Source of the DNA: Acidobacteriota bacterium
GTDB taxonomy: Bacteria; Acidobacteriota; Thermoanaerobaculia; Gp7-AA8
Reading direction: 5' to 3'
Length of the DNA: 57,727 bases
Assembly (NCBI GenBank): GCA_003223645.1
Contig: QHVT01000030.1
Coordinates: 1 to 57,727 of the forward strand
Numbering within the stretch: position 1 is the stretch's first letter; every line of letters starts with the position of its first letter. Positions 4,450-45,198 of this stretch are shown here, piece by piece. Both the position numbers and the translations under genes were made by a program. The notes under the pieces are model-generated. The model made no database searches, had not been told where the DNA came from, and worked only from the letters and a program-made list of their open reading frames with translations.

Positions 4450-4692
4450 ATGGCAAGCGACGACATCGACTACAGCGCGGAAGGCCGCACGCCTCCTCAC
4501 GAGAAAGACGACCCGACGAACGAGGGATACGACGAAGCCGCCCACGGCGGCGACAGCAAGTACGGCGTTCCCGAGGGGCAAGGCGGCGTGTTCGGCACCA
4601 GCGGAGGCGGCACCTACGACGGCGGGATGCACGTCGAAGAGCGGCCGGTGATTACCACCGAGCGCGGCAAGGACGAGAACCCGGGCTCATAG
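4450..4692 (+). CDS. Small acidic hydrophilic protein, unknown function
   Basis: An 80-residue protein rich in Asp, Glu and Gly with no hydrophobic segment, beginning MASDDIDYSAEGRTPP. It contains a Gly-rich stretch (GQGGVFGTSGGGTYDGG) and looks disordered. Codon usage is like that of the neighbours. The start codon is separated by one base from the hrpB start on the other strand, and no ribosome binding site is visible, so the message may be leaderless. Its TAG stop lies inside the first unit of the repeat array that follows. I do not recognise a family; that it is a real gene is likely but not certain. Confidence 0.6.
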   Translation: MASDDIDYSAEGRTPPHEKDDPTNEGYDEAAHGGDSKYGVPEGQGGVFGTSGGGTYDGGMHVEERPVITTERGKDENPGS

Positions 4693-4860
4693 GCTCACAG
4701 GCGCATGGGCGCATAGGCGCATGGGCTTATAGGCGCATGGGCTCATAGGGAGGCTCATAGGCTATGCGCCCATGAGCCTCTGCGCCCATGAGCCTCTGCG
4801 CCCATGAGCCTCTGCGCCCCATGAGCCTCTGCGCCCATGAGCCTCTGCGCCCATGAGCCT
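4684..4860. repeat. Inverted array of short units (GGCGCATA / GCCCATGAGCCTCT)
   Basis: The left arm is a run of about 7-8 base units such as GGCTCATA, GGCGCATG and GGCTTATA (4684-4750). A short GGAGG spacer follows, then a right arm with about six copies of GCGCCCATGAGCCTCT (4773-4859). The arms are broadly complementary and could pair as a long imperfect hairpin. The array provides the stop codon of the preceding gene, and its last base is the first base of the TTGACA box of the next promoter. Confidence 0.85.
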
Positions 4861-6306: not shown

Positions 6307-6592
6307 CGGTGTAGCGCAGGCTTTCCAGCCTGCGCTCCGGGGGGCAGGTTAGAAAACCTGCCCCACACCAGTCCTCACCCGGTCGAGTCCAGAATCTCCT
6401 CGATCGACGTCCGCCGGCACGTGTACATCGGCGTGTCGCGCACCGTGAACCGGTGTAGCGCAGGCTTTCCAGCCTGCGCCCCGGGGGCAGGTTGGTAACC
6501 TGCCCCACACCAGTCCTCACCCGATCGAGTCCAGAATCTCCTCGATTGACGTCCGCCGGCACGTGTACATCGGCGTGTCGCGCACGGTGAAT
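6307..6592. repeat. Tandem duplication of about 144 bp including the 3' end of the Cld-family gene
   Basis: Two near-identical copies, 6307-6450 and 6451-6592. Each holds the hairpin GCGCAGGCT-TTCC-AGCCTGCGC, a second hairpin GGGCAGGTT...AACCTGCCCC, and then the last coding segment of the Cld-family gene up to CACCGTGAA/CACGGTGAA. Only the right-hand copy is joined to the intact gene; the left copy is an orphan 3' fragment. The hairpins lie between convergent genes and may serve as a two-way terminator. Confidence 0.85.
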
Positions 6593-11326: not shown

Positions 11327-11437
11327 GATGGCGGATGGCGGATGGCAGATGGCGGATGGCAGATGGCGGATGGCAGATGGCCCCACCGCCCGGCTCGGTT
11401 CTGCCATCCGCCATCCGCCATCCGCCATCCGCCATCC
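11327..11437. repeat. Inverted array of GATGGCG heptamers
   Basis: Left arm of eight exact-period heptamers, GATGGCG or GATGGCA (11327-11382), a 20-base loop, and a right arm of five GCCATCC heptamers (11403-11437). It fills the divergent region between recN and the L,D-transpeptidase gene. The same heptamer is used at 14722-14842 and 15771-15866. Confidence 0.9.
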
Positions 11438-11476
11438 GGTATCGCCATCGGCCCAGCCATTGCTTTATCCGACCTC

Positions 11477-12754: not shown

Positions 12755-12756
12755 AC

Positions 12757-12842
12757 CCGGTTGCGCGGTTGCCCGGTCACGCAGTGCGGCGGGCTGGTGC
12801 CCGCCGCTCTGTTTTTGCCGCGTAACCGAGCAACCGCGCAAC
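12757..12842. repeat. Inverted array of GTTGCGCG-type octamers between convergent genes
   Basis: Left arm GGTTGCGCGGTTGCCCGG (12758-12775) and right arm CGCGTAACCGAGCAACCGCG (12818-12837). A separate GC-rich hairpin is nested in the loop. Confidence 0.75.
12786..12817 (+). terminator. Rho-independent terminator after the L,D-transpeptidase gene
   Basis: A perfect 9-bp stem GCGGCGGGC-TGGT-GCCCGCCGC (12786-12807), followed by TCTGTTTTT. It is placed 32 bases after the stop codon. Confidence 0.8.
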
Positions 12843-14147: not shown

Positions 14148-14840
14148 CTACTTCGCACTCGCCGCCGCGACCCTTGCCTGGATCTCCATGTCCAGATCCA
14201 TCACGGTGTAGACCCACTCGCTGTAGTCGCTCGCGCCGTTGAATTCGATGTAGCTTTTTCCTTCGGCAGCGGGGCGCACACCGATGAACGGGCCGACGTA
14301 ATCGCGCGGGGAGGCTTCCTTGACCAACTTGCGCGGCCCGGGGGTCGCGGTGCTCGCGCCGGTATTCGCGTAGTTGGCGATGTTCGGAGGGACGTTCGCT
14401 CCCCCTCCCTGCACCGCGCTCGGAGGCACGAGAATCCAGTCGTCTTGTTTTCCGGTGATCGGGCAGACCGGCTTGTCGATGCCGCGTATGAACCGCGGAC
14501 GGCGCGCCTCGAGGATCTGATCGAGGCTCGTCGGCGTGCCGCCGTTCTTCTTGCCCCACGCTTCGATCGCGCGCGCGAACTGCTTCATCAGGAAGATCGT
14601 CTGCCGGTCGCGCTCGCGCCCCATGACGAGCGACCACTGGTCGGGCACGGTGTAGGCGATCACCAGCGCGATGATCGTGAGGATCACGAGCAGCGCGGCG
14701 AGGGTGAAGCCCTCTTGATTGGATGGCAGATGGCGGATGGCGGATGGCGGATGGCGGATGGCGGACGGCGGATGGCGGATGGCGGATGGCAGAGACTTAC
14801 CGCGGGCGGGCGGGGCCATCTGCTGTCCGCCATCTGCCAT
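14148..14840 (-). CDS. GspG-like pseudopilin with a repeat-array-encoded leader
   Basis: A 230-residue prepilin-like protein. The prepilin motif EG^FTLAALLVIL is at about 50-62, followed by the hydrophobic N-terminal helix. The usual Glu at mature position 5 is Ala. The globular part contains CPITGKQDDW, a motif shared with its two neighbours. The only start codon in frame is the ATG at 14840, giving a 51-residue leader; 14722-14842 is a GATGGCG array, so the leader reads as SAIRHPP repeats. It starts 4 bases after the stop of the previous pseudopilin. The product is expected to be cleaved by PilD and to form part of a pseudopilus. Confidence 0.8.
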   Translation of the reverse strand: MADGGQQMAPPARGKSLPSAIRHPPSAIRHPPSAIRHLPSNQEGFTLAALLVILTIIALVIAYTVPDQWSLVMGRERDRQTIFLMKQFARAIEAWGKKNGGTPTSLDQILEARRPRFIRGIDKPVCPITGKQDDWILVPPSAVQGGGANVPPNIANYANTGASTATPGPRKLVKEASPRDYVGPFIGVRPAAEGKSYIEFNGASDYSEWVYTVMDLDMEIQARVAAASAK

Positions 14841-14842
14841 CT
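14722..14842. repeat. Inverted array of GATGGCG heptamers inside the pseudopilin leader codons
   Basis: Ten heptamers GATGGCR, one of them GACGGCG (14722-14791), a 23-base loop and four complementary heptamers such as GCCATCT (14815-14842). The array contains the pseudopilin start codon (14838-14840) and encodes most of its leader peptide. Because the unit is 7 bases, loss or gain of one unit would shift the reading frame. Confidence 0.9.
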
Positions 14843-14844
14843 GC

Positions 14845-15279
14845 TTAAAGATCCGCGTACGGAACATGATCGAGTGTCTCGCCCGGCGCTTTGCTCTTCA
14901 CGTCGATGACGCCGGGCTCCAGGCTGGCGTTGGGATCGGTCTCTGCCGGAACGGCCTCGGTGCCGCCCGCTTCGCTGTTCTCGAGCGGGTTGTCCATGAC
15001 CAGCTCCCAGTCGGCCTGCTTCGTGATCGGGTCGGGCGGGATCTTGCGCACGTAGTTCGGCACGAGGTCTTGGAGGCTCGCCGGATAGTGCTGTTTGTCG
15101 GCGTAGTAGTTGTCGATGCATTTGCGCAGCTGGAAGAGGTTGTCTTTCAGCGCGGCCTCGGCGGCTTTGCGCTGCGCAAACTTGACGTTGACGATCGCCA
15201 CGGCGGCAAGGATGCCGATGATCGTGACGACGACGATCAGCTCGATCAACGAGAAGCCTTTTTGTGAACGCTGTTTCAT
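14845..15279 (-). CDS. GspG-like pseudopilin
   Basis: A 144-residue type II secretion/type IV pilus-like pseudopilin. The leader is MKQRSQKG, then FSLIELIVVVTIIGILAAVA with the conserved Glu5. The globular region includes LRKCIDNYYADKQHYP, LQDLVPNYVRKIPPDPITK and DWELV, the normal GspG-like pattern of alpha helix then a DP(I/F)T loop. The ATG at 15279 gives a leader of normal length. An ATG at 15291 overlaps the stop of the preceding gene and would add MVTP. It is the least unusual of the three pseudopilins here and probably the functional core. Confidence 0.88.
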   Translation of the reverse strand: MKQRSQKGFSLIELIVVVTIIGILAAVAIVNVKFAQRKAAEAALKDNLFQLRKCIDNYYADKQHYPASLQDLVPNYVRKIPPDPITKQADWELVMDNPLENSEAGGTEAVPAETDPNASLEPGVIDVKSKAPGETLDHVPYADL

Positions 15280-15284
15280 CGGGG

Positions 15285-15872
15285 TCACCATTCGTTGTAA
15301 TGCGTCTTGCCGTCGAGGGCGAGCGCGGTCGATTTGGAATGCACTTCGAACACGTTGTCGCCGTTGCTCATCGACGTGTCTGGGTCGTCGGTCGTGGAGA
15401 GCGTGTTCCATTCTTTACGGCCGGTCATCGGATCGATGAGATCGCGCTCGCGGATGAGACGGATCGTTTTTCCGTCCGACATCTTGATGCCTTCGAGCAA
15501 CTCGTCGAGGTCTTTCGGATACCCCTCCGAGCCGAGGGCCTGCATCTGCGCGGGCCTCAACGTCGCGTTCGGCAGATTGGCCATGCCCATCAGATCGTGC
15601 CAGCGATCGATCGCGTCGGTGATCTTGCGCAGGCGGTCGTGCAGCTCGATCTCCTTCTGACGCCGCAGGCTGAAGCGCGCAACCGGCAGAGCGACCGCGG
15701 CGAGAATCGCGATGATCGCGCACACGGTCACCAGTTCGGCGAGCGTGAAGCCCTTTTCGGCGCCTCCGCGGCGGATGGCGGATCGCGGACGGCGGATGGC
15801 CGAGCACACGACTGGCGTGCCTTCCAATCGGCGTTTCGCCATCTGCCATCTGCCCTCTGCCATCTGTTTCAT
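15285..15872 (-). CDS. GspG-like pseudopilin with an extended, array-containing leader
   Basis: A 195-residue prepilin. The cleavage motif AEKG^FTLAELVTVCAII lies at about 38-52, with Glu5 present. The globular part has DRLRKITDAIDRWHDL and DPMTGRKEW. The ATG at 15872 overlaps the pilQ stop (ATGA) and gives MKQMAEGRWQMAKRR..., a 41-residue leader; residues 4-35 are encoded by the inverted repeat array at 15771-15866. Without the array the leader would be about MKQ plus RRGGAEKG, a normal length, so the array looks like an in-frame insertion. Confidence 0.83.
   Translation of the reverse strand: MKQMAEGRWQMAKRRLEGTPVVCSAIRRPRSAIRRGGAEKGFTLAELVTVCAIIAILAAVALPVARFSLRRQKEIELHDRLRKITDAIDRWHDLMGMANLPNATLRPAQMQALGSEGYPKDLDELLEGIKMSDGKTIRLIRERDLIDPMTGRKEWNTLSTTDDPDTSMSNGDNVFEVHSKSTALALDGKTHYNEW
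15771..15866. repeat. Inverted array of GATGGCG-type heptamers inside pseudopilin leader codons
   Basis: Left arm with degenerate GCGGATG units (15771-15799), a loop of about 39 bases and right arm GCCATCT GCCATCT GCCCTCT GCCATCT (15839-15866). It is wholly inside the 5' coding end of the pseudopilin gene that starts at 15872. Confidence 0.85.
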
Positions 15873-18346
15873 TGAACGTGCGCTTTGCCGCCCGCGACCG
15901 CGGCGACGACCTGCTCTCCGCCGCGGTTGCGGATATCGGGATTGTCGATGATCAGGAACGTCTCGCCGATCACTCCGCCGTGCACGCGAATCGAGAGAAC
16001 GACTCCGCCGCTGACGAACTGCAGCGGCTTGCCGTTCGTCGGCTTCACTTTGATCGTTCCCGCTTCGCGGTCGATCGCGATCGCCGGCGCGGCCGTCGCA
16101 TCGACGACGAGCGCCGGTCCGAACACGATGTCGGTGACGTCCATCGCGCGCGGATTGAAGTGGAACGTCAGCTCCGGAACGGTCAGATCGTCGAGGTCCA
16201 TTCCGATGATGTTCCACAGCTTCGTCTCGCCGGGAGAGAGCGAGATGGATGACGGCTGCGGCGCGAGACGCGGAGCGAGGCGCAGCGCGGCGGTGTCAGG
16301 TTCGGAGATGCTCGTCTCGCTGAGACTCGTCGCGGCGAAGTTGTTGCTCTTCGTCGTGTCGAGCTTCACTTCCGGCTCGGGCGGCGGCTGATTCGGATTC
16401 GGTTTCGGCGCGGCCTGCGGTTGCGGCTGGCGGTCCTGAGTCGCGGGCGGCTTGTCCGGAATGATGTAGTTGCCCGGCTCGTCTCCTACGGGCTGATAAC
16501 CCGCAACCGCGGCATTGAACTGTTGATCGTTGCGGTTCGCGAACGGATCACCGACCGAGCCCTGCGACTCGATGCGCGGCGAGATCCCGCGGAACGTGAG
16601 GTTCGTTCCCGTGCCGACCCACATCGGCGCCAGATCTTCCTCGGTGATGTCGGGGATGCGGATGATGTGCGGCGTCATCGTCAGCACGAGGTCGGTGCGC
16701 GTTTCTTCTTTGCGCGTCTTCGTGAACAGACGTCCGATCACGGGGATGTCGCCGAGGCCGGGCGTCTTGTCGTTGCCCTCCGTTTTGGTCGACTGAATGA
16801 GGCCGGCAAGGAAATTCGTCTCGCCGTCTTTCAGACGGATCGTCGACTCGATCGTGCGCGTCGCGAACGTCGGCTGGTCCTGTCCCGCGAACGTGACCAC
16901 CGGTCCCTGGTTCGAGACTTCGACCGTGAGCTTCAGCGTGACTTCGCGGTTGTGATGCACGCGCGGCTCGATGCCGACCTTGATGCCGACGTCCTGATAC
17001 TGGAACGACGTGTACGGCGCGGTGAGCGACGGGTTGGTGCTGCCGGTGCCGCCGGGGTTGTAGCCCTGGATCGTGGTGACGGGAACGGGGATGCGCTGTC
17101 CGATGTGCAGCGTCGCTTTCTCGCCTTCGGAGATGCGCAGCTCGGGATTGGCGAGCAGCTCGCTCGAGCCGATCGATTTGAGCAGCGAATAGGTGGCGGT
17201 CGGAATCGAGAACGTGACGTTGTTCTTGATGTCGTTCAAGCTGCCGACGACGCGCGCGATGTCGGAGAGCGTGCCGCCGTTGAAGTTCGCGGCCTTTCCG
17301 TCGGCGCCGACGGTGAAGGGCTGCGGTGAGCTCTTCTGAATGCCGATGGCGAGCCCCATGTCGCGCACTTTGTTGAGATCGAGCTGCACGAGCTCGACGT
17401 CGACGACGACTTCGGCTTTGGCCTTGTCGTTCGCTTCGATGATCTTTTCCGCGATGCGCACCTTGTCCGCGGTGTCGCGGATGGTGATCGCGTTGAGCGC
17501 CTTGAGCGGGAAGACGTTGCGCGCCTCGATCATCGTGCGCACGACGTTGGTGACCTGCTCGGCGTCGCCGTTCGAGAGATAGAACGTGCGGATGACGAGG
17601 TCTTCGTAGTCGCGCCGCGCCTGCGGGTTGTCGGGGACGACGATGATCGTCTTCTCGTCGAGGACTTTGTAGAAGTGATTCGCGGCCTGCATGACGCGCT
17701 CGAGCGCGGTCTGCGCGGTGACCTCGTGCAGGTCGATGGTGATGCGGTCGTCCTTCACCGCCTGATCGAACAGGATGTTGATGCCGAACGCGTTGCCGAG
17801 GGCGCGGTAGATGTCCTTGACCGGAGTGTCGTGCGAGAACGTGAGCGTGATCGGCTCGTTCGACGCGGGATTCAGCTGCGGCGGCTGGGCTTTGGAGATC
17901 GCCGACTGCGCGCGCTTCTTGATCTCGTCGATGGAGACCAGCTGGGCTGCGGCCTGCTGGATCTGCTGAATCAAGTCGAGTGCGTGCGAGAGCTCGACGA
18001 CCGCGTACTGATTGGTCGGATCGAGACGAACGGTGAGCTCTAGTTCCGTCGATGCGAGCTGCGCGAGCCGGAACTGCTCGGGTCCGCGCGCCTGGCGCGC
18101 CGCGTCGCGCAGCGTCTTCCCTTTTTCGAAGTGCACGCGCGAGGCCTCGAGGCGCGCGCGCTGCACTTCCATCTGGTAGCGGCGGTTGTCGGGCGAGATC
18201 TCGAGCGCGCGCTCGTACTGCACCACCGCCTCATCCCAGTTCTTTTCCTTCTCCGCCTTCTGGCCGTTGTTGAACGCGTTGTAGCTGACGCAGGAGGAGA
18301 GCAGGAACGCGATGCTGAGAGCTGCCGTGGTTTTCTTTAGGTTCAT
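15869..18346 (-). CDS. pilQ: PilQ/GspD-type secretin, TPR and cohesin-like fusion lipoprotein
   Basis: An 825-residue outer-membrane secretin. It begins with a lipoprotein signal (AFLLSSC, Cys near 19) and two TPR-like helical pairs (about 25-130). A secretin N-domain region follows (TLTFSHDTPVKDIYRALGNAFG; LVIRTFYLSNGDAEQVTNVVRTM), then the secretin core with GSSELLANPELRISEGE and LKDGETNFLAGLIQ. A Pro-rich linker leads to a C-terminal cohesin-like domain (LSPGETKLWNIIGMDLDDLTV). It forms the gated outer-membrane pore for the pilus/pseudopilus. It is the seventh gene of the pil operon; its stop overlaps the next pseudopilin start. The lipobox and cohesin-like tail are unlike classical PilQ but resemble secretins of Acidobacteriota. 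Confidence 0.9.
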   Translation of the reverse strand: MNLKKTTAALSIAFLLSSCVSYNAFNNGQKAEKEKNWDEAVVQYERALEISPDNRRYQMEVQRARLEASRVHFEKGKTLRDAARQARGPEQFRLAQLASTELELTVRLDPTNQYAVVELSHALDLIQQIQQAAAQLVSIDEIKKRAQSAISKAQPPQLNPASNEPITLTFSHDTPVKDIYRALGNAFGINILFDQAVKDDRITIDLHEVTAQTALERVMQAANHFYKVLDEKTIIVVPDNPQARRDYEDLVIRTFYLSNGDAEQVTNVVRTMIEARNVFPLKALNAITIRDTADKVRIAEKIIEANDKAKAEVVVDVELVQLDLNKVRDMGLAIGIQKSSPQPFTVGADGKAANFNGGTLSDIARVVGSLNDIKNNVTFSIPTATYSLLKSIGSSELLANPELRISEGEKATLHIGQRIPVPVTTIQGYNPGGTGSTNPSLTAPYTSFQYQDVGIKVGIEPRVHHNREVTLKLTVEVSNQGPVVTFAGQDQPTFATRTIESTIRLKDGETNFLAGLIQSTKTEGNDKTPGLGDIPVIGRLFTKTRKEETRTDLVLTMTPHIIRIPDITEEDLAPMWVGTGTNLTFRGISPRIESQGSVGDPFANRNDQQFNAAVAGYQPVGDEPGNYIIPDKPPATQDRQPQPQAAPKPNPNQPPPEPEVKLDTTKSNNFAATSLSETSISEPDTAALRLAPRLAPQPSSISLSPGETKLWNIIGMDLDDLTVPELTFHFNPRAMDVTDIVFGPALVVDATAAPAIAIDREAGTIKVKPTNGKPLQFVSGGVVLSIRVHGGVIGETFLIIDNPDIRNRGGEQVVAAVAGGKAHVQ

Positions 18347-18349
18347 TTC

Positions 18350-18435
18350 AGTTCCTGGTTCCTGGTGCTGGGTGCCGCGTGCCGGGTGCTGAGTCATTCG
18401 TCTCTTCTCAGCACCCTGCACTCTTCACTCAGCAC
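18350..18435. repeat. Inverted array of GTGCTGG-type heptamers between pilP and pilQ
   Basis: Left arm CCTGGTGCTGGGTGCCGCG and CGGGTGCTGAGT (18354-18394), a 12-base loop and right arm CTCAGCACCCTGCACTC...CACTCAGCAC (18407-18435). It occupies the 130-base gap between pilP and pilQ. Confidence 0.85.
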
Positions 18436-21200: not shown

Positions 21201-21312
21201 AAAGCAGAAAGCAGAAGGCAGAAGGCAGAAGGCAGAAGGCAGAACGAGATCACGACGCACGCGCGGCGCGCCGTTTCTCACTTCTGCCTTCTGCCTTCTG
21301 CCTTCTGCCTTC
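21201..21312. repeat. Inverted array of GCAGAAG heptamers between pilB and pilM
   Basis: Left arm of six GCAGAAR units (21203-21244), a loop of about 32 bases, and right arm CTTCTGC repeated five times (21281-21312). It fills the whole pilB-pilM spacer. A close relative with GCAGAAA units is at 43851-43956. Confidence 0.9.
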
Positions 21313-21318
21313 ATATGT

Positions 21319-22944
21319 TTACTCGACAAACGTCACCTTATTGATCTCTCTCAGCGTCGTCTGCCCCTCCATCACCTTGAGAAGGGCCGACTCGCGAAGG
21401 AATGTCATTCCTTCTTCCTTCGCTGCCTTCTTGATCTCCGATGCGGGCCTGCGGTCGAGAATCATGCCTCGAATACGATCGGAGAGATCGAGAAGTTCCG
21501 AGATCGCGGAGCGTCCGTGGAAGCCGGTGCCGTTGCACTCCAGGCAACCGCCGCCTTCGAAGAACGTGCGGCCCTGGTAGTCGGCCGGATCGAGGCCGGA
21601 TTCAGTGAGGAACGAGTCGGGATAATCAACTTCGCGCCTGCAGTGATCGCAGATGCGGCGCACGAGGCGCTGGGCGAGGACGCAGTTCAGCGCCGACACG
21701 AAGTTGTACAGATCGACCTTCATGTTGAGGAAGCGTCCGAGGACGTCGACGACGTTGTTCGCGTGGACGGTCGTGAACACGAGGTGGCCGGTGAGCGCCG
21801 ACTGCACGGCGATCTGCGCGGTCTCTTCATCGCGGATCTCGCCGACCATGATCTTGTCGGGGTCGTGGCGCAGGATCGAGCGCAGTCCGCGCGCGAACGT
21901 CAGTCCCTTTTTCTCGTTGACCGGGATCTGCGTGATGCCGCGCAGCTGATATTCGACCGGATCTTCGATCGTGATGATCTTGTCTTCCGATGACTGGATC
22001 TCCGACAGCGCGGCGTACAGCGTGGTCGTCTTGCCGGAGCCGGTGGGACCGGTGACGAGCACCATGCCGTACGGCTCTTTGATGAACTTGCGGAAGCGCG
22101 TCAGCATCCCCAGGTCGAAGCCGAGGATGTCGAGGCGAAGGTTCTTGAACTCCTTCGACATCGACTCTTTGTCGAGAATACGGATGACCGAGTCCTCGCC
22201 GTGCGCGGTCGGAACGATCGAGACGCGGAAGTCGATGGTGCGGCCGGTGATGCGGAGCTTGAAGCGTCCGTCCTGCGGGATGCGCTTTTCGGCGATGTCC
22301 AGCTCCGACATGATCTTGATACGGGAGATGATCGTGGAGTGATGGCGCTTGTCGATCGGATCGAGGGCCTCGTAGAGCACGCCGTCGATGCGGTACTTGA
22401 CGACGACTTCATTGTCGCGAGTCTCGATGTGAATGTCCGAGGCGCGGCGCTGGATGGCGTTGAACACGATCGAGTCGACGAGCTTGATGATCGGCGACGT
22501 TTCCTGCTGCGTGATCGAGTCGATCGTGACCGTCTCTTCGCCTTCTTCATCCTCGGCGATGAGCTGCATGCGGAAGCCTTCGGTGGCTTCGTCGAGGACG
22601 CGCTGCGTCGACTCCGAGCGCTGCAGCTTGTCGCGGATCGCCGCGGGCGACGCGACTTTCACTTTCAGCGGCGCGCCGAGGAGCAGCTCCAGCTCATCGA
22701 GCTTCAGCACGTCGGTCGGATCGCCGACGACGATCGCGATGTGCCCGTTCTCGCGATGCTCGGGGATGAACTGATAGCGGATCATCAGGTCCAGCGGGAT
22801 GTCGCGGAACAGCTGATGATCGACCTGGAAATGCTCCAGATCGATGAAGGGAAACCCGTACTGCTCCGCCATGCGGCGGGCGCGGGTTGCCTCACCCGTA
22901 GGGTCGGCATTCTTATAGAGCGTGCGATTCGGATCGGCGACCAT
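21319..22944 (-). CDS. pilB: PilB/GspE-type assembly ATPase
   Basis: A 541-residue hexameric ATPase driving pilin polymerisation. An N-terminal MshEN-like domain (about 20-115) includes RMAEQYGFPFIDLE. Walker A is GPTGSGKTTT at 299-308, the Asp box region is IHIETRDNEVVVKYRIDGV, Walker B is DKIMVGEIRDEETA, and the His box is TGHLVFTTVHANN. A zinc tetracysteine is formed by CDHC and CLEC near 455-490. It acts at the cytoplasmic face with PilC and PilM. Confidence 0.94.
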   Translation of the reverse strand: MVADPNRTLYKNADPTGEATRARRMAEQYGFPFIDLEHFQVDHQLFRDIPLDLMIRYQFIPEHRENGHIAIVVGDPTDVLKLDELELLLGAPLKVKVASPAAIRDKLQRSESTQRVLDEATEGFRMQLIAEDEEGEETVTIDSITQQETSPIIKLVDSIVFNAIQRRASDIHIETRDNEVVVKYRIDGVLYEALDPIDKRHHSTIISRIKIMSELDIAEKRIPQDGRFKLRITGRTIDFRVSIVPTAHGEDSVIRILDKESMSKEFKNLRLDILGFDLGMLTRFRKFIKEPYGMVLVTGPTGSGKTTTLYAALSEIQSSEDKIITIEDPVEYQLRGITQIPVNEKKGLTFARGLRSILRHDPDKIMVGEIRDEETAQIAVQSALTGHLVFTTVHANNVVDVLGRFLNMKVDLYNFVSALNCVLAQRLVRRICDHCRREVDYPDSFLTESGLDPADYQGRTFFEGGGCLECNGTGFHGRSAISELLDLSDRIRGMILDRRPASEIKKAAKEEGMTFLRESALLKVMEGQTTLREINKVTFVE

Positions 22945-22954
22945 AAATTAAAAA

Positions 22955-23042
22955 GTGCTGAGTGCTGCGTGCTGGGTGCTGCGTTGCCTGCTCACCCGGA
23001 TGGGGGTGGAACTCAGCACGCAGCACTCAGAACCCGGCACTC
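22955..23042. repeat. Inverted array of GTGCTGA/GTGCTGG heptamers between pilC and pilB
   Basis: Left arm GTGCTGA GTGCTGC GTGCTGG GTGCTGC (22955-22982), a loop and right arm ACTCAGCACGCAGCACTCAG (23011-23030) plus CCCGGCACTC. It is related to the array at 18350-18435 in the same operon. Confidence 0.85.
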
Positions 23043-23049
23043 TCATCGA

Positions 23050-24258
23050 CTACCCTTGGCCGACCGACGAGAGGCGGAACAGCGGTAGGTAGAACGCATA
23101 CAGCAGCACGGCGATCACGAGCCCCATGAACACGAGGATGATCGGTTCGATGGCAGACACCATTCGCGACAGCCGGGCTTCGATTTCCTCATCGTAGAAC
23201 TCGCTCACGTTGGCGAGCATTTCCGTCAGCGCGCCGGTCGACTCGCCGACTTTGATCATTTCGATGGCGAGGTCGCTGATGACCCCGGTGTTGTCGAGCG
23301 AGCGCCACAGCGGCTCGCCCTCGCGCACGTTCTGCACGATGCCGGCGATCCTCGACGCCACGAGCTGATTCGTGACCGACTGCGACGCGATCTCGATCGC
23401 CGGAACCATCGGCGTTCCGCCGGCCAGCAGCGTGCCGAGCGACTGTGTGAACTGCATGATCGCGAAGCGGTGCAGAACGCCGCCCGCGAAGGGAACGCGC
23501 AGCTTGAGGCGGTCCCACACCAGGCGGCCGGATGTTTTTACCCAGCGATTGAGCAGCACGATGCCGACGATCACGGCGAGGATGGTGACGAGGAAGTTCT
23601 TCCGCAGCAGCGTCGCGAGGTTGATCATCAGCTGCGTGAACCACGGCAGCTCCGCGCCGAACCCTTCGAAGAACTCCGCGAACTTCGGGATGACGAACGT
23701 CATCATCACGAAAATCATCACCGACGAGAGAAAGATGAGGATTACCGGATAGATCAGCGCGCCGACGACTTTGCGGCGCAACGACGAGATCATTTTCTGA
23801 TAGCGCAGGAAGCGCTTCAGAACGCCTTCGAGATCACCCGAGCGCTCACCGGCGCGCAGCGACGTCGAGTAGATCGGCGGAAAGAGATTTCCGTACGCGG
23901 CGAACGCATCGGAGAGCGCGACGCCGGACATGATCTTCTCGCGGATCTCGCTGAGGATCTCGCGGAAGCGCTGGTTCTTCTGCCGCTCGAGCATGATGTC
24001 GAACGACTGCACGATCGGCAGACCCGCGCGCACGAGCGCGAGCAGCTCCTGGTTGAAGAGGAGGAAGTGGTCGGTGGAGATGCCTTTGCCGAAGCGGGGG
24101 ATGAGATCGCGCGCGCGCATCGCGCCGCGCTTCCCTTCGAACACGTGCATGCCGAGGCGCTGCATTTCCGCCTGCGCCGCGCGGAGGCTCTCCGCCCGCA
24201 CATGACGCTCGATGATCTCGCCCTCGGGAGTCCCGACTTTGATGATGAATTCTGGCAT
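23050..24258 (-). CDS. pilC: PilC/GspF-type inner-membrane platform protein
   Basis: A 402-residue polytopic protein with two T2SSF domains. The first has ELLALVRAGLPIVQSFDIMLERQKN, the second QSLGTLLAGGTPMVPAIEIASQS and MIKVGESTGALTEML. TM helices are around 170-195, 220-245 and 372-398. The N-terminus MPEFIIKVGTPEGEIIERHV sets the start at 24258. It is the first gene of the pil operon, and its promoter should lie in 24259-24391. PilC sits in the membrane and is turned by PilB to extrude the pilin helix. Confidence 0.93.
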   Translation of the reverse strand: MPEFIIKVGTPEGEIIERHVRAESLRAAQAEMQRLGMHVFEGKRGAMRARDLIPRFGKGISTDHFLLFNQELLALVRAGLPIVQSFDIMLERQKNQRFREILSEIREKIMSGVALSDAFAAYGNLFPPIYSTSLRAGERSGDLEGVLKRFLRYQKMISSLRRKVVGALIYPVILIFLSSVMIFVMMTFVIPKFAEFFEGFGAELPWFTQLMINLATLLRKNFLVTILAVIVGIVLLNRWVKTSGRLVWDRLKLRVPFAGGVLHRFAIMQFTQSLGTLLAGGTPMVPAIEIASQSVTNQLVASRIAGIVQNVREGEPLWRSLDNTGVISDLAIEMIKVGESTGALTEMLANVSEFYDEEIEARLSRMVSAIEPIILVFMGLVIAVLLYAFYLPLFRLSSVGQG

Positions 24259-43014: not shown

Positions 43015-43832
43015 GCAGCGAGTGTAGCGCCGCCCGGCGCGAGCCACGGCAGAACCGCGGACATCATCGCGCGGCCGAAGAACAGCATCACCAGCGCCGC
43101 GATGCCGAGAAAGACGCCGAACGGCAGCGCGGTCTGCATCCCGCCGTTCGAGCGCAGCGCGATCAGCACGCCGACGAGCGCGCCGGCGGTGGAGGCGATG
43201 ATGAGGATGAACATCACCGGCTCCCATCCCATCACCGCGCCGAGCATCGCCATCATCTTCACGTCGCCGAGTCCCATCCCTTCGATCTTGCGCACGAGTT
43301 TGTACGTCATGCCGATCGCGAGCAGGATCCCCGCGCCCGCCGCCGCGCCCGCGACGGACTCCAGAAGCGTCGCCGAGAGCATGAGATCGGGAACGAGCGC
43401 GCCGACGTGCAGCGCGCCCATCGCCAGACCGATCGCGACGCCGGGAAGATCGATGACGTCCGGCAGGATCTGGATGTCGAGGTCGATGTAGATCAGCGCG
43501 ATCGTCATCGACACGATCGCCGCGAGCGGAAGAAACGTGAACGAGAGTCCCGTGCGTTGAAAGATCGCGAGATAAAACAGCGCGTTCGCCAACTCGACGA
43601 GCGGATACCGCGCGGTGATCGGCTCGCGGCACGCGCGACAGCGGCCGAGGAGGATGAGCCAGCTGAGGATGGGGATGTTGTCGTAGGGACGAATGAGCGT
43701 GTTGCAATGCGGGCAGTGGCTCGGCGGCAGGACCACGGATTCGCCGAGCGGATAGCGATGGATGACCACGTTGAGAAAACTCCCGACGATCGCGCCGAGG
43801 GCGAAGGCGGCGAAGGCAAAGAGCCACGGCAT
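43005..43832 (-). CDS. pilD: Prepilin peptidase PilD (A24 family)
   Basis: A 275-residue polytopic membrane enzyme. The N-terminal methylase-type region has GSFLNVVIHRYP and two zinc-binding pairs, CPHC and CRAC. The two catalytic Asp sites are in LIYIDLDIQILPD and GLGDVKMMAMLG. It cleaves the Gly-Phe bond of prepilins and N-methylates the new N-terminus at the inner membrane, and so serves all the pseudopilins in this window. The ATG at 43832 is chosen; the longer frame upstream is array sequence. Confidence 0.94.
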   Translation of the reverse strand: MPWLFAFAAFALGAIVGSFLNVVIHRYPLGESVVLPPSHCPHCNTLIRPYDNIPILSWLILLGRCRACREPITARYPLVELANALFYLAIFQRTGLSFTFLPLAAIVSMTIALIYIDLDIQILPDVIDLPGVAIGLAMGALHVGALVPDLMLSATLLESVAGAAAGAGILLAIGMTYKLVRKIEGMGLGDVKMMAMLGAVMGWEPVMFILIIASTAGALVGVLIALRSNGGMQTALPFGVFLGIAALVMLFFGRAMMSAVLPWLAPGGATLAAWP

Positions 43833-43850: not shown

Positions 43851-43956
43851 AGAAAGCAAAAAGCAGAAAGCAGAAAGCAGAAATGTGAGCTTGGAGGCGC
43901 GCGTTATCGCCGGCACTCTCGATTTCTGCTTTTTGCTTTCTGCTTTCTGCTTTTTC
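43851..43956. repeat. Inverted array of GCAGAAA heptamers between pilD and selC
   Basis: Left arm AGCAAAA and GCAGAAA units (43851-43883), a loop of about 38 bases and right arm TTTCTGCTTTTTGCTTTCTGC and onwards (43923-43956). Its right edge is one base from the first base of the selenocysteine tRNA, so it occupies the place where the tRNA promoter is expected. Confidence 0.9.
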
Positions 43957-44055: not shown

Positions 44056-44682
44056 AGCGGGTGCGCACTCGCGTGATCACAGCACGTCATCCGAAGATCA
44101 GCCCAACGCGTCAATCGAGTGCCCTCGAGATCTTCGGATCGCGAATCCTGCTGATTCGAGTCCCGTGCGTCTCGCGCGGAGTCGAGCTCTCCTGATCTTT
44201 GAGATGCGCGTCTGATTTCGAGATGCGCGTCTGATCTTTTGAGATGAGCGTCTGATCTTTCGAGATGCGCGTCTGGTCTTTCGAGATGAGCGTCTGATCT
44301 TTCGAGATGAGCGTCTGATCTTTCGAGACCAGCGTCTGATTTCTTGAGACCAGCGTCTGATCTTTCGAGATGTGCGTCTGGTCTCTTGAGACGAACGTCT
44401 GATCTTTCGAGATGCGCATCTGATCTTTCGAGATGCGCGTCTGATCTCTCGAGACCAGCGTTTGATCTCTTGAGACGAACGTCTGATCTTTTGAGACGCG
44501 CGTTTGATCTCTTGAGGCAAGCTCTAGATCTTTTGAAGCGAATGTCGCTTGAAAGGGACAGCTTGCGTGTCGCGCGAAGTCGAGCCTCTGATCTTTTGAA
44601 GCCAATGTCTCTTGAAAAGGACGGCCTTCGTGTCGCGCCGCTACCACGACAGCGGTTGTGGAACGCTCGCGTAACGCGCTAA
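44056..44682. other. Region between selC and exbD without a convincing gene
   Basis: It holds an imperfect palindrome around 44094-44156 (CCGAAGATC against GATCTTCGGATC), a 21-bp minisatellite (separate entry) and two longer degenerate copies near 44524-44640. These share TGATCTTTTGAAG and the tail CGTGTCGCGC. Frames on the minus strand are open through the repeats because 21 is a multiple of three, but no start with a ribosome binding site is visible. Confidence 0.6.
44192..44523. repeat. 21-bp minisatellite with a mini-hairpin in each unit
   Basis: About 16 units of the form TCTGATCTTTCGAGATGCGCG. Two units at the left have 19 bases, the rest 21. Each unit contains TCT-NNNN-AGA with inner bases TTCG, TTTG, CTTG or CTCG; on the plus strand these would be UUCG/CUUG-like tetraloops on a short stem. 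Read on the minus strand the repeat gives the heptapeptide ISKDQTR, but coding is unproven. Confidence 0.85.
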
Positions 44683-45117: not shown

Positions 45118-45198
45118 GGTTGCGCAGTCGCTCGGTTGCTCGGTTGCGCGGCAGATTCAAACCCGCCTAACTGCGAAACCGCGTAACCGCGCAACCGT
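45118..45198. repeat. Inverted array of GTTGCTCG-type octamers between the exbD genes
   Basis: Left arm GTTGCGCA GTCGCTCG GTTGCTCG GTTGCGCG (45119-45151) and right arm CTGCGAAACCGCGTAACCGCGCAAC (45171-45196). Confidence 0.8.

Follow-up and report, generated by a model that had tools for sequence, protein, structure and literature searches.

Tandem-heptad hairpins lengthen the leader codons of two pseudopilin genes in an Acidobacteriota bacterium and are probably tolerated inserts rather than switches

The operon and its pseudopilin genes

The window, i.e., the whole stretch of DNA that was analyzed (57,727 nucleotides), contains a T2SS-like operon on the minus strand, in which the genes follow one another in the order T2SSF, T2SSE with MshEN, two genes without a Pfam match, T2SSM_b, a small gene, a secretin, the pseudopilin genes 2, 3, and 1, and an M16 peptidase. 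The T2SSF gene (gspF, 23050-24258, minus strand) and the T2SSE gene with MshEN (gspE, 21319-22944, minus strand) were recognized by Pfam; by operon position, we take the two unmatched genes to be PilM-like and PilN-like and the T2SSM_b gene to be PilO-like. The secretin gene (15869-18421, minus strand; PF00263, E = 4.1e-41), whose true start may be internal, lies upstream of gene 2 and matched the GspD model TIGR02517 with an E-value of 1.2e-50, yet under the cut-off of that model.

Gene 1 (14148-14867, minus strand) starts with an ATG that overlaps gene 3 and encodes a leader of 53 residues followed by the mature start FTLAALL, and gene 2 (15285-15872, minus strand) starts with an ATG that overlaps the stop codon of the secretin gene (ATGA) and encodes a leader of 41 residues followed by FTLAELV. 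Gene 3 (14845-15279, minus strand), which carries no element, sits between them and has a normal leader of 8 residues, or 12 if counted from an earlier in-frame ATG. The sequence-only reading of this DNA had given leaders of 51 and 41 residues to two neighboring genes and a normal 8-residue leader to a third: the second and third values hold, the first becomes 53 when counted from the ATG at 14867, and the two genes are not direct neighbors. Its label GspG-like is weak for genes 1 and 2 (TIGR01710, E = 0.005 and 0.0049), gene 3 being the better match (E = 7.6e-11), and all three remain under the cut-off of the model. The Pfam N_methyl domain was matched by gene 1 under its cut-off (E = 5.8e-4) and by gene 2 over it (E = 3.8e-5). 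A single clear orthologue was found among 28 loci obtained by contig search, in an uncultured Acidobacteria (L061, 45% identity over 31-195), and none of these loci came from a close strain. The only PF01478 match in the whole genome is also inside the window, in the form of a prepilin peptidase domain (Peptidase_A24, 43167-43520, minus strand, E = 4.2e-17), and this protein is likely, judging from its domain, the enzyme that removes the leaders of genes 1 and 2.

Two hairpins of tandem heptads in the leaders

Tandem repeat detection (TRF) and base pairing resolved the additional leader codons into two hairpins with arms made of 7-nt units (GATGGCR). In gene 1, the cleavage-site-proximal arm has 10 heptads (GGATGGC, 14721-14790) and is separated by a 24-nt loop from an inverted partner of 4.3 heptads (GCCATCT, 14815-14844), while in gene 2 an arm of 4.4 heptads (GGCGGAT, 15770-15800) faces, across a 37-nt loop, an inverted partner of 4.1 heptads (GCCATCT, 15838-15866). 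Single arrays had been proposed at 14722-14791 and 15771-15866; the first corresponds to the long arm of gene 1, and the second is not one array but a pair of inverted arms around the 37-nt loop. The exact sequence GATGGCGGATGGCG occurs nine times in the window, five of them at 14729-14784, which is far above chance (mean of 0 in 100 shuffles). Both arrays read in frame between the upstream ATG and the prepilin cleavage motif, as had been claimed, so that genes 1 and 2 each have a coding heptad array near the 5' end with a unit length that is no multiple of 3. The arms are not perfect repeats of their unit, with TRF matches of 93% and 83%. Folded as RNA, the two leader stems reach -61.5 kcal/mol (z = -5.65) and -57.9 kcal/mol (z = -3.58), and none of 200 shuffles was as stable in either case. 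ATG codons are present within the elements 44 and 37 residues ahead of the cleavage site in gene 1 and 38 and 31 residues ahead of it in gene 2; between the last arm and the cleavage site, no ATG, GTG, or TTG exists in either gene.

Heptad hairpins in this genome and in its relatives

Four further hairpins of the same class were detected in the window by TRF and pairing: a GCAGAAG hairpin between gspE and the next gene of the operon (21204-21312), an AGTGCTG-type hairpin between gspF and gspE (22954-23042), a GATGGC hairpin just upstream of a YkuD-type-looking gene named by eye (11327-11453), and an AGAAAGC hairpin (43851-43953). The pattern (GATGGCN)x3 has 599 overlapping matches in this genome and its reversed pattern has none; in a 458-kb sample of the genome, 62 matches cluster in 15 places. 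Among the 147 genomes of the class, the pattern is present in three, with zero matches in the single genome of the same genus (G001). GCAGAAG x3 is similarly patchy, with 173 matches in this genome, 87 in G007, 77 in G014, 1 to 11 in six others, and none in 138.

Pairs of heptad or octad arrays were overwhelmingly inverted, both in the 458 kb of this genome (53 inverted vs. 4 direct) and in relatives (372 kb, mostly surrounding this operon; 31 vs. 2), and five Markov-1 resamplings yielded one inverted pair in total. Another 400 kb, made up of 20 stretches of which 40 kb are from G001 and the rest from the order and class, held three inverted pairs, two of them in G001, which argues that such hairpins are more frequent within the family than in its surroundings. 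When only heptads were considered, 68 inverted pairs stood against 4 direct ones, and these 68 hairpins fall into 17 unit families; at least 65 of the hairpins are from the family, the CGTGGTC unit being contributed only by G030, a genome outside it. The median arm length is 31 nt (4.4 units), with 62 of the 136 arms measuring 30-32 nt; if one median is taken per unit family, the median of these values is 30.5. GGG runs are absent from GATGGCG and from most of the 17 units.

According to gene calls made with a simple codon-usage script, 33 of the 53 hairpins in the sample of this genome are intergenic, 16 touch the end of a called gene, and 4 are inside one, including one case in which the ORF was judged spurious. 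GATGGC hairpins also encode in-frame C-terminal tails in an ABC-type ATPase (L102:4624-5401) and in a chorismate-mutase-like gene (L104:16086-16452), both named by eye.

Two candidate routes of propagation were examined. A mirror order of the arm variants, which would be a sign of palindromic copying, was not the rule, as the outer register was best in 12, tied in 4, and worse in 50 of 66 hairpins (mean identity of 0.889 against 0.875); a few elements look mirrored, and L106:3562 and L108:17420 share a variant order by eye. A Y1/RAYT transposase as the mover has no clear support in this genome, which has one weak Y1_Tnp match (G000:C4:53122, E = 3e-7) with the nearest detected hairpin about 1.6 kb away; no match was found in G001, and 1 to 15 in each of the other 11 family genomes searched.

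Other repeats were noted alongside the heptads. Octad or 16-mer inverted arrays of the GGTTGCGC and GGCGCATA types, whose arms are similarly long, lie at 12756-12842, 45118-45197, and 4684-4860 of the window (the last pair seen by eye), and with 14 octad pairs in the 458-kb sample they appear as a sister class. Inverted arrays of CCCGCG-type hexads, whose arms measure about 33-40 nt, were seen at L094:5006-5131, L103:18563-18666, and L099:11612-11722; hexads overall gave 28 inverted and 26 direct pairs, the missing bias being due to short chance pairs. A second palindrome family, of the CATCCTGAGC...GCTCAGGATGAC type, sits in the loops of heptad hairpins (L092:14960-15134, L094:14963-15131, L106:6565-6751) and in leaders of G007 and G014. 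The window also holds about 15 copies of the 21-bp tandem repeat CTGATCTTTCGAGATGAGCGT (44192-44510) and a 142-bp sequence present twice in tandem with 94% identity (6307-6591).

Inserts at the pseudopilin junctions of the family

The three junctions that precede the pseudopilin cleavage sites, namely secretin/gene 2 (J2), gene 2/gene 3 (J3), and gene 3/gene 1 (J1), were measured as the gap from the upstream stop codon to the cleavage codon in 17 operons of the family (18 genomes; one genome per species), giving 51 junctions. G004 was left out since it had no gene 2 match at E <= 1e-25, as were the second loci of G005, G010, and G014, in which genes were missing or merged; G018, G030, and G032, which are outside the family, were measured and left uncounted. 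Inserts were found at 21 of the 51 junctions (4 at J2, 9 at J3, 8 at J1), or at 18 of 51 by length alone (>= 60 nt), the difference being three short inserts counted owing to their heptads (G007 J3, 35 nt; G012 J3, 56 nt; G016 J1, 52 nt). The J3 gap of 123 in G015 is extrapolated, and the leader of its gene 3 was read separately. At insert-free junctions, the gap measures 7-59 nt and the leader about 5-25 residues; in G001, of the same genus, the leaders measure 15 and 11 residues and carry no element.

The units of the inserts differ between genomes: GATGGCG in this genome, GTTGCTG-type in G010, GGTCGAG in G003, AGACCGC-type in G009 and G016, GAATCGA-type in G013, GAACGAT in G008, G011, G012, and G015, GCAGAAG in G007, GGCATGA in G016, and GGCCAGT in G017. 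In addition, 8-mers occur in G009 and G014, non-heptad palindromes in G007, G014, and G015, and the J1 junction of G005 has extra DNA without a recognizable repeat. Some inserts are common by descent (G009/G016 at J1, G007/G015 at J2, perhaps GAACGAT at J3). Between species of one genus, lengths differ by 42 nt (14 codons) in two pairs, with the same change at J1 and at J2. In G030, which does not belong to the family, two leaders contain heptad hairpins, in frame, and are 54 and 55 residues long. Neither a target duplication, nor a transposase, nor a clean empty site could be shown for the inserts, the alignment with G001 being ragged.

Gene 3 of G015 (L123) combines an in-frame 60-residue leader, in which another palindrome is nested in the loop of a heptad hairpin, with a mature part that is broken just after FTLIE, where the hydrophobic segment is lost and the frame changes. 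This lesion may reflect a pseudogene or an assembly error.

The same operons provided control junctions without leaders. At three neighboring ones, inserts were present in 2 of 46 cases (0/16, 2/16, and 0/14), at gspE/next gene in 6 of 16, and at gspF/gspE in 3 of 13. The 21 of 51 leader inserts exceed the first three junctions (p = 2e-5), the set enlarged by gspE/next gene (p = 0.001), and the set enlarged by both (p = 0.0015), and the 18 of 51 defined by length give p = 1.3e-4, 0.007, and 0.009, respectively, with the qualification that these p values treat operons of related, and thus not independent, species as samples. J2 alone did not differ significantly from the controls (p = 0.28). 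Control junctions were counted by length only and the hairpin status of their inserts was checked inside the window; the poorly anchored L114 and L120 were left out at PilO/next gene, the small gene/secretin and gene 1/M16 junctions were measured and then excluded as too ragged, and only the window offers the junction before gspF. The proposal that the leader is a tolerant site is thus supported, though it is not the sole one.

Translation through the inserts

At J1, the gap is congruent to 1 modulo 3 in 16 of the 17 operons, which places it in register with an overlapping start codon in the preceding gene, and in the nine orthologues without a J1 insert an in-frame ATG lies 23-29 nt inside gene 3. 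The one exception is G013, whose ATG is inside the element. We sorted the 21 inserts by hand into start classes. Where no start codon exists between the insert and the cleavage site, the native frame was kept and open in 11 of 11 inserts; where a start codon follows the insert, the native frame was found in 3 of 8, which is about chance (p = 0.005 for the comparison); the remaining 2 of 21 have a start inside the insert. Excluding J3 of G015 with its broken gene leaves 10 of 10 (p = 0.0065), and if the two inserts with an inside start are scored as failures the proportion is 11 of 13 (p = 0.056). Element frames are open by chance in about half of the cases (200/408). The inserts common by descent reduce the 11 frame-requiring ones to about 8 independent events. 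That the frame is kept where it is needed implies that the leaders are translated through, and the sequence data support a leader read in frame from an upstream or element-borne ATG.

Interpretation and alternatives

We consider it probable (roughly 0.75) that dispersed heptad hairpins are tolerated in cleaved leaders, which serve as landing sites rather than as on/off switches. Both leaders would owe their length to a dispersed hairpin element with inverted tandems of 7-nt units as its arms, a reading based on the scattering of the unit in this genome and its absence in G001, on the short leaders of insert-free orthologues, on other hairpins at the same three junctions in relatives, and on the frame being kept where an insert must be translated. 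The in-frame C-terminal tails of two other genes and the encoded prepilin peptidase also speak for it, while the inserts at junctions without a leader speak against it. Such an element would spread regardless of genes, and an insert between the start codon and the cleavage site would survive if its length keeps the frame and no stop codon is introduced, because the prepilin peptidase is predicted to cut the added peptide off and leave the mature pseudopilin unchanged. The 7-nt unit itself may help arrays to be tolerated in coding leaders: as 7 is coprime to 3, an array that is stop-free in one frame is stop-free in all three.

The sequence-only reading had favored a contingency locus, in which slippage by one heptad shifts the frame and toggles the pseudopilin between ON and OFF. 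The precedent is neuO of E. coli K1, a coding heptad locus that needs a repeat number divisible by 3 for expression and is OFF in 42 of 64 genomes (PMC13001214). The position of a 7-nt unit in the 5' coding part fits this proposal, as do the 10 units of the arm at 14721-14790 against 4.3 in its partner, which means that the unit number changed at some time, and the insert lengths that differ between species of a genus. We nevertheless regard it as very unlikely, since the frame was kept in every insert that translation must cross and no gene was OFF by frame in the 17 family operons, taken from one genome per species; compared with the neuO counts, this gives p = 5e-4 for the 8 independent events and p = 0.0014 for 11 of 13. 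The broken gene 3 of G015 has its lesion beyond an in-frame leader and is therefore not OFF by insert frame. The same hairpins are moreover mostly outside genes, and their units are imperfect within the arms. As lengths vary between species while the frame is constant, a rare or slow frame switch may operate at these leaders. It could also be argued that the arrays are untranslated and the long leaders an annotation artefact, the genes starting at an unusual codon after the element. Insertion upstream of a start does occur, as five relatives (G010, G009, G014, G016, and G017) have a start codon after the insert, but we find this explanation highly improbable here, given that the window offers no ATG, GTG, or TTG after the last arm in either gene, that the frame was held in all 11 inserts lacking a later start, and that the ATGs inside the elements would still leave an arm translated.

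Alternatively, the stems could be kept for a task in mRNA or DNA, acting as intercistronic hairpins that set gene dose within the operon or stop or stabilize transcripts, as was proposed for REP elements. The stability of the two stems, which no shuffle equaled, the presence of hairpins at four gene junctions of this operon, and arms of about 31 nt whatever the unit, suggestive of a constraint on the stem, all speak for such a role. It is unlikely all the same, because the family does not conserve hairpins at particular junctions (30 of the 51 pseudopilin junctions have no insert), units differ between genera, and the variants in the two arms do not mirror each other (outer register best in 12 of 66).

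Tolerated insertion into cleaved leaders remains the reading that we prefer, and a more far-reaching version of it, which we think rather unlikely, would make the hairpins of the family one self-propagating class whose common feature is geometry rather than sequence, namely two arms of about 31 nt, each a run of direct 7-nt repeats. Every lineage would amplify units of its own (17 seen), and cleaved prepilin leaders would serve as coding landing sites. If true, such copying of a shape instead of a sequence would make these hairpins a new type of repeat element. More generally, a cleaved leader would be a place where spreading DNA can enter a coding gene and hardly burden the product, and the frame rule (kept where the insert is crossed, about chance where the start follows) is a genomic test of this idea. 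The data further describe heptad hairpins, a class that has received little study, in which the arms have a preferred length while the unit changes freely, and they advise caution, as a coding heptad array need not be a phase-variation switch.

Comparison with known systems

Searches of the open-licence literature returned no match for heptanucleotide inverted tandem repeats in Acidobacteri; among the matches listed for STRR/heptanucleotide repeats, none was on leader hairpins by title, and none was by title and beginning of the abstract among those for prepilin leader peptides. In the available parts of the accounts of Xanthomonas, Nostoc, and Rickettsia, we have not seen described an arm of about 31 nt shared by 17 units, insertion into prepilin leaders on repeated occasions, or the frame rule.

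The GGGAATC heptads of Xanthomonas mostly have four units, are mainly intergenic, and are in many cases paired convergently at short distance, which makes them inverted repeats (70 cases for 186 repeats in Xcc and 75 for 183 in Xac; Rehm et al. 2015, PMC4692102). The 7-nt unit, the approximately four units per array, and the close inverted pairs are found here too, whereas theirs is one G-rich unit with G-quadruplex potential and ours are 17 unit families without a G-run rule and with insertion in leader codons. In the P6b stem-loop of the Nostoc trnL intron, the class of heptad motif is swapped between lineages and the structure stays (PMC4476775); a stem built of 7-nt repeats with a changing unit is common to both systems, but P6b belongs to a group I intron and is neither dispersed nor coding.

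REP elements, as defined in PMC12306157, are multi-copy, palindromic, and mostly extragenic, which resembles the multi-copy palindromes near gene ends and mostly outside genes seen here; REPs have one consensus per genome, unlike the tandem-heptad stems with several unit families per genome and no clear Y1 partner in this genome. With neuO, the leaders have in common a coding heptad array near the 5' end in which the unit number sets the frame, and they differ in that neuO has one direct, phase-variable array, while here inverted arms are paired and the frame is kept where needed. Finally, the Rickettsia palindromic elements, summarized in a review (PMC10969869), are sequence families of about 150 bp with a conserved peptide that are tolerated in frame in ORFs. 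They resemble the heptad hairpins as dispersed palindromes in and outside genes that can be in frame in ORFs, a likeness that we claim for behavior only, and the hairpins differ from them by heptad arms with a changing unit that are, in our sample, confined to gene ends and leaders.
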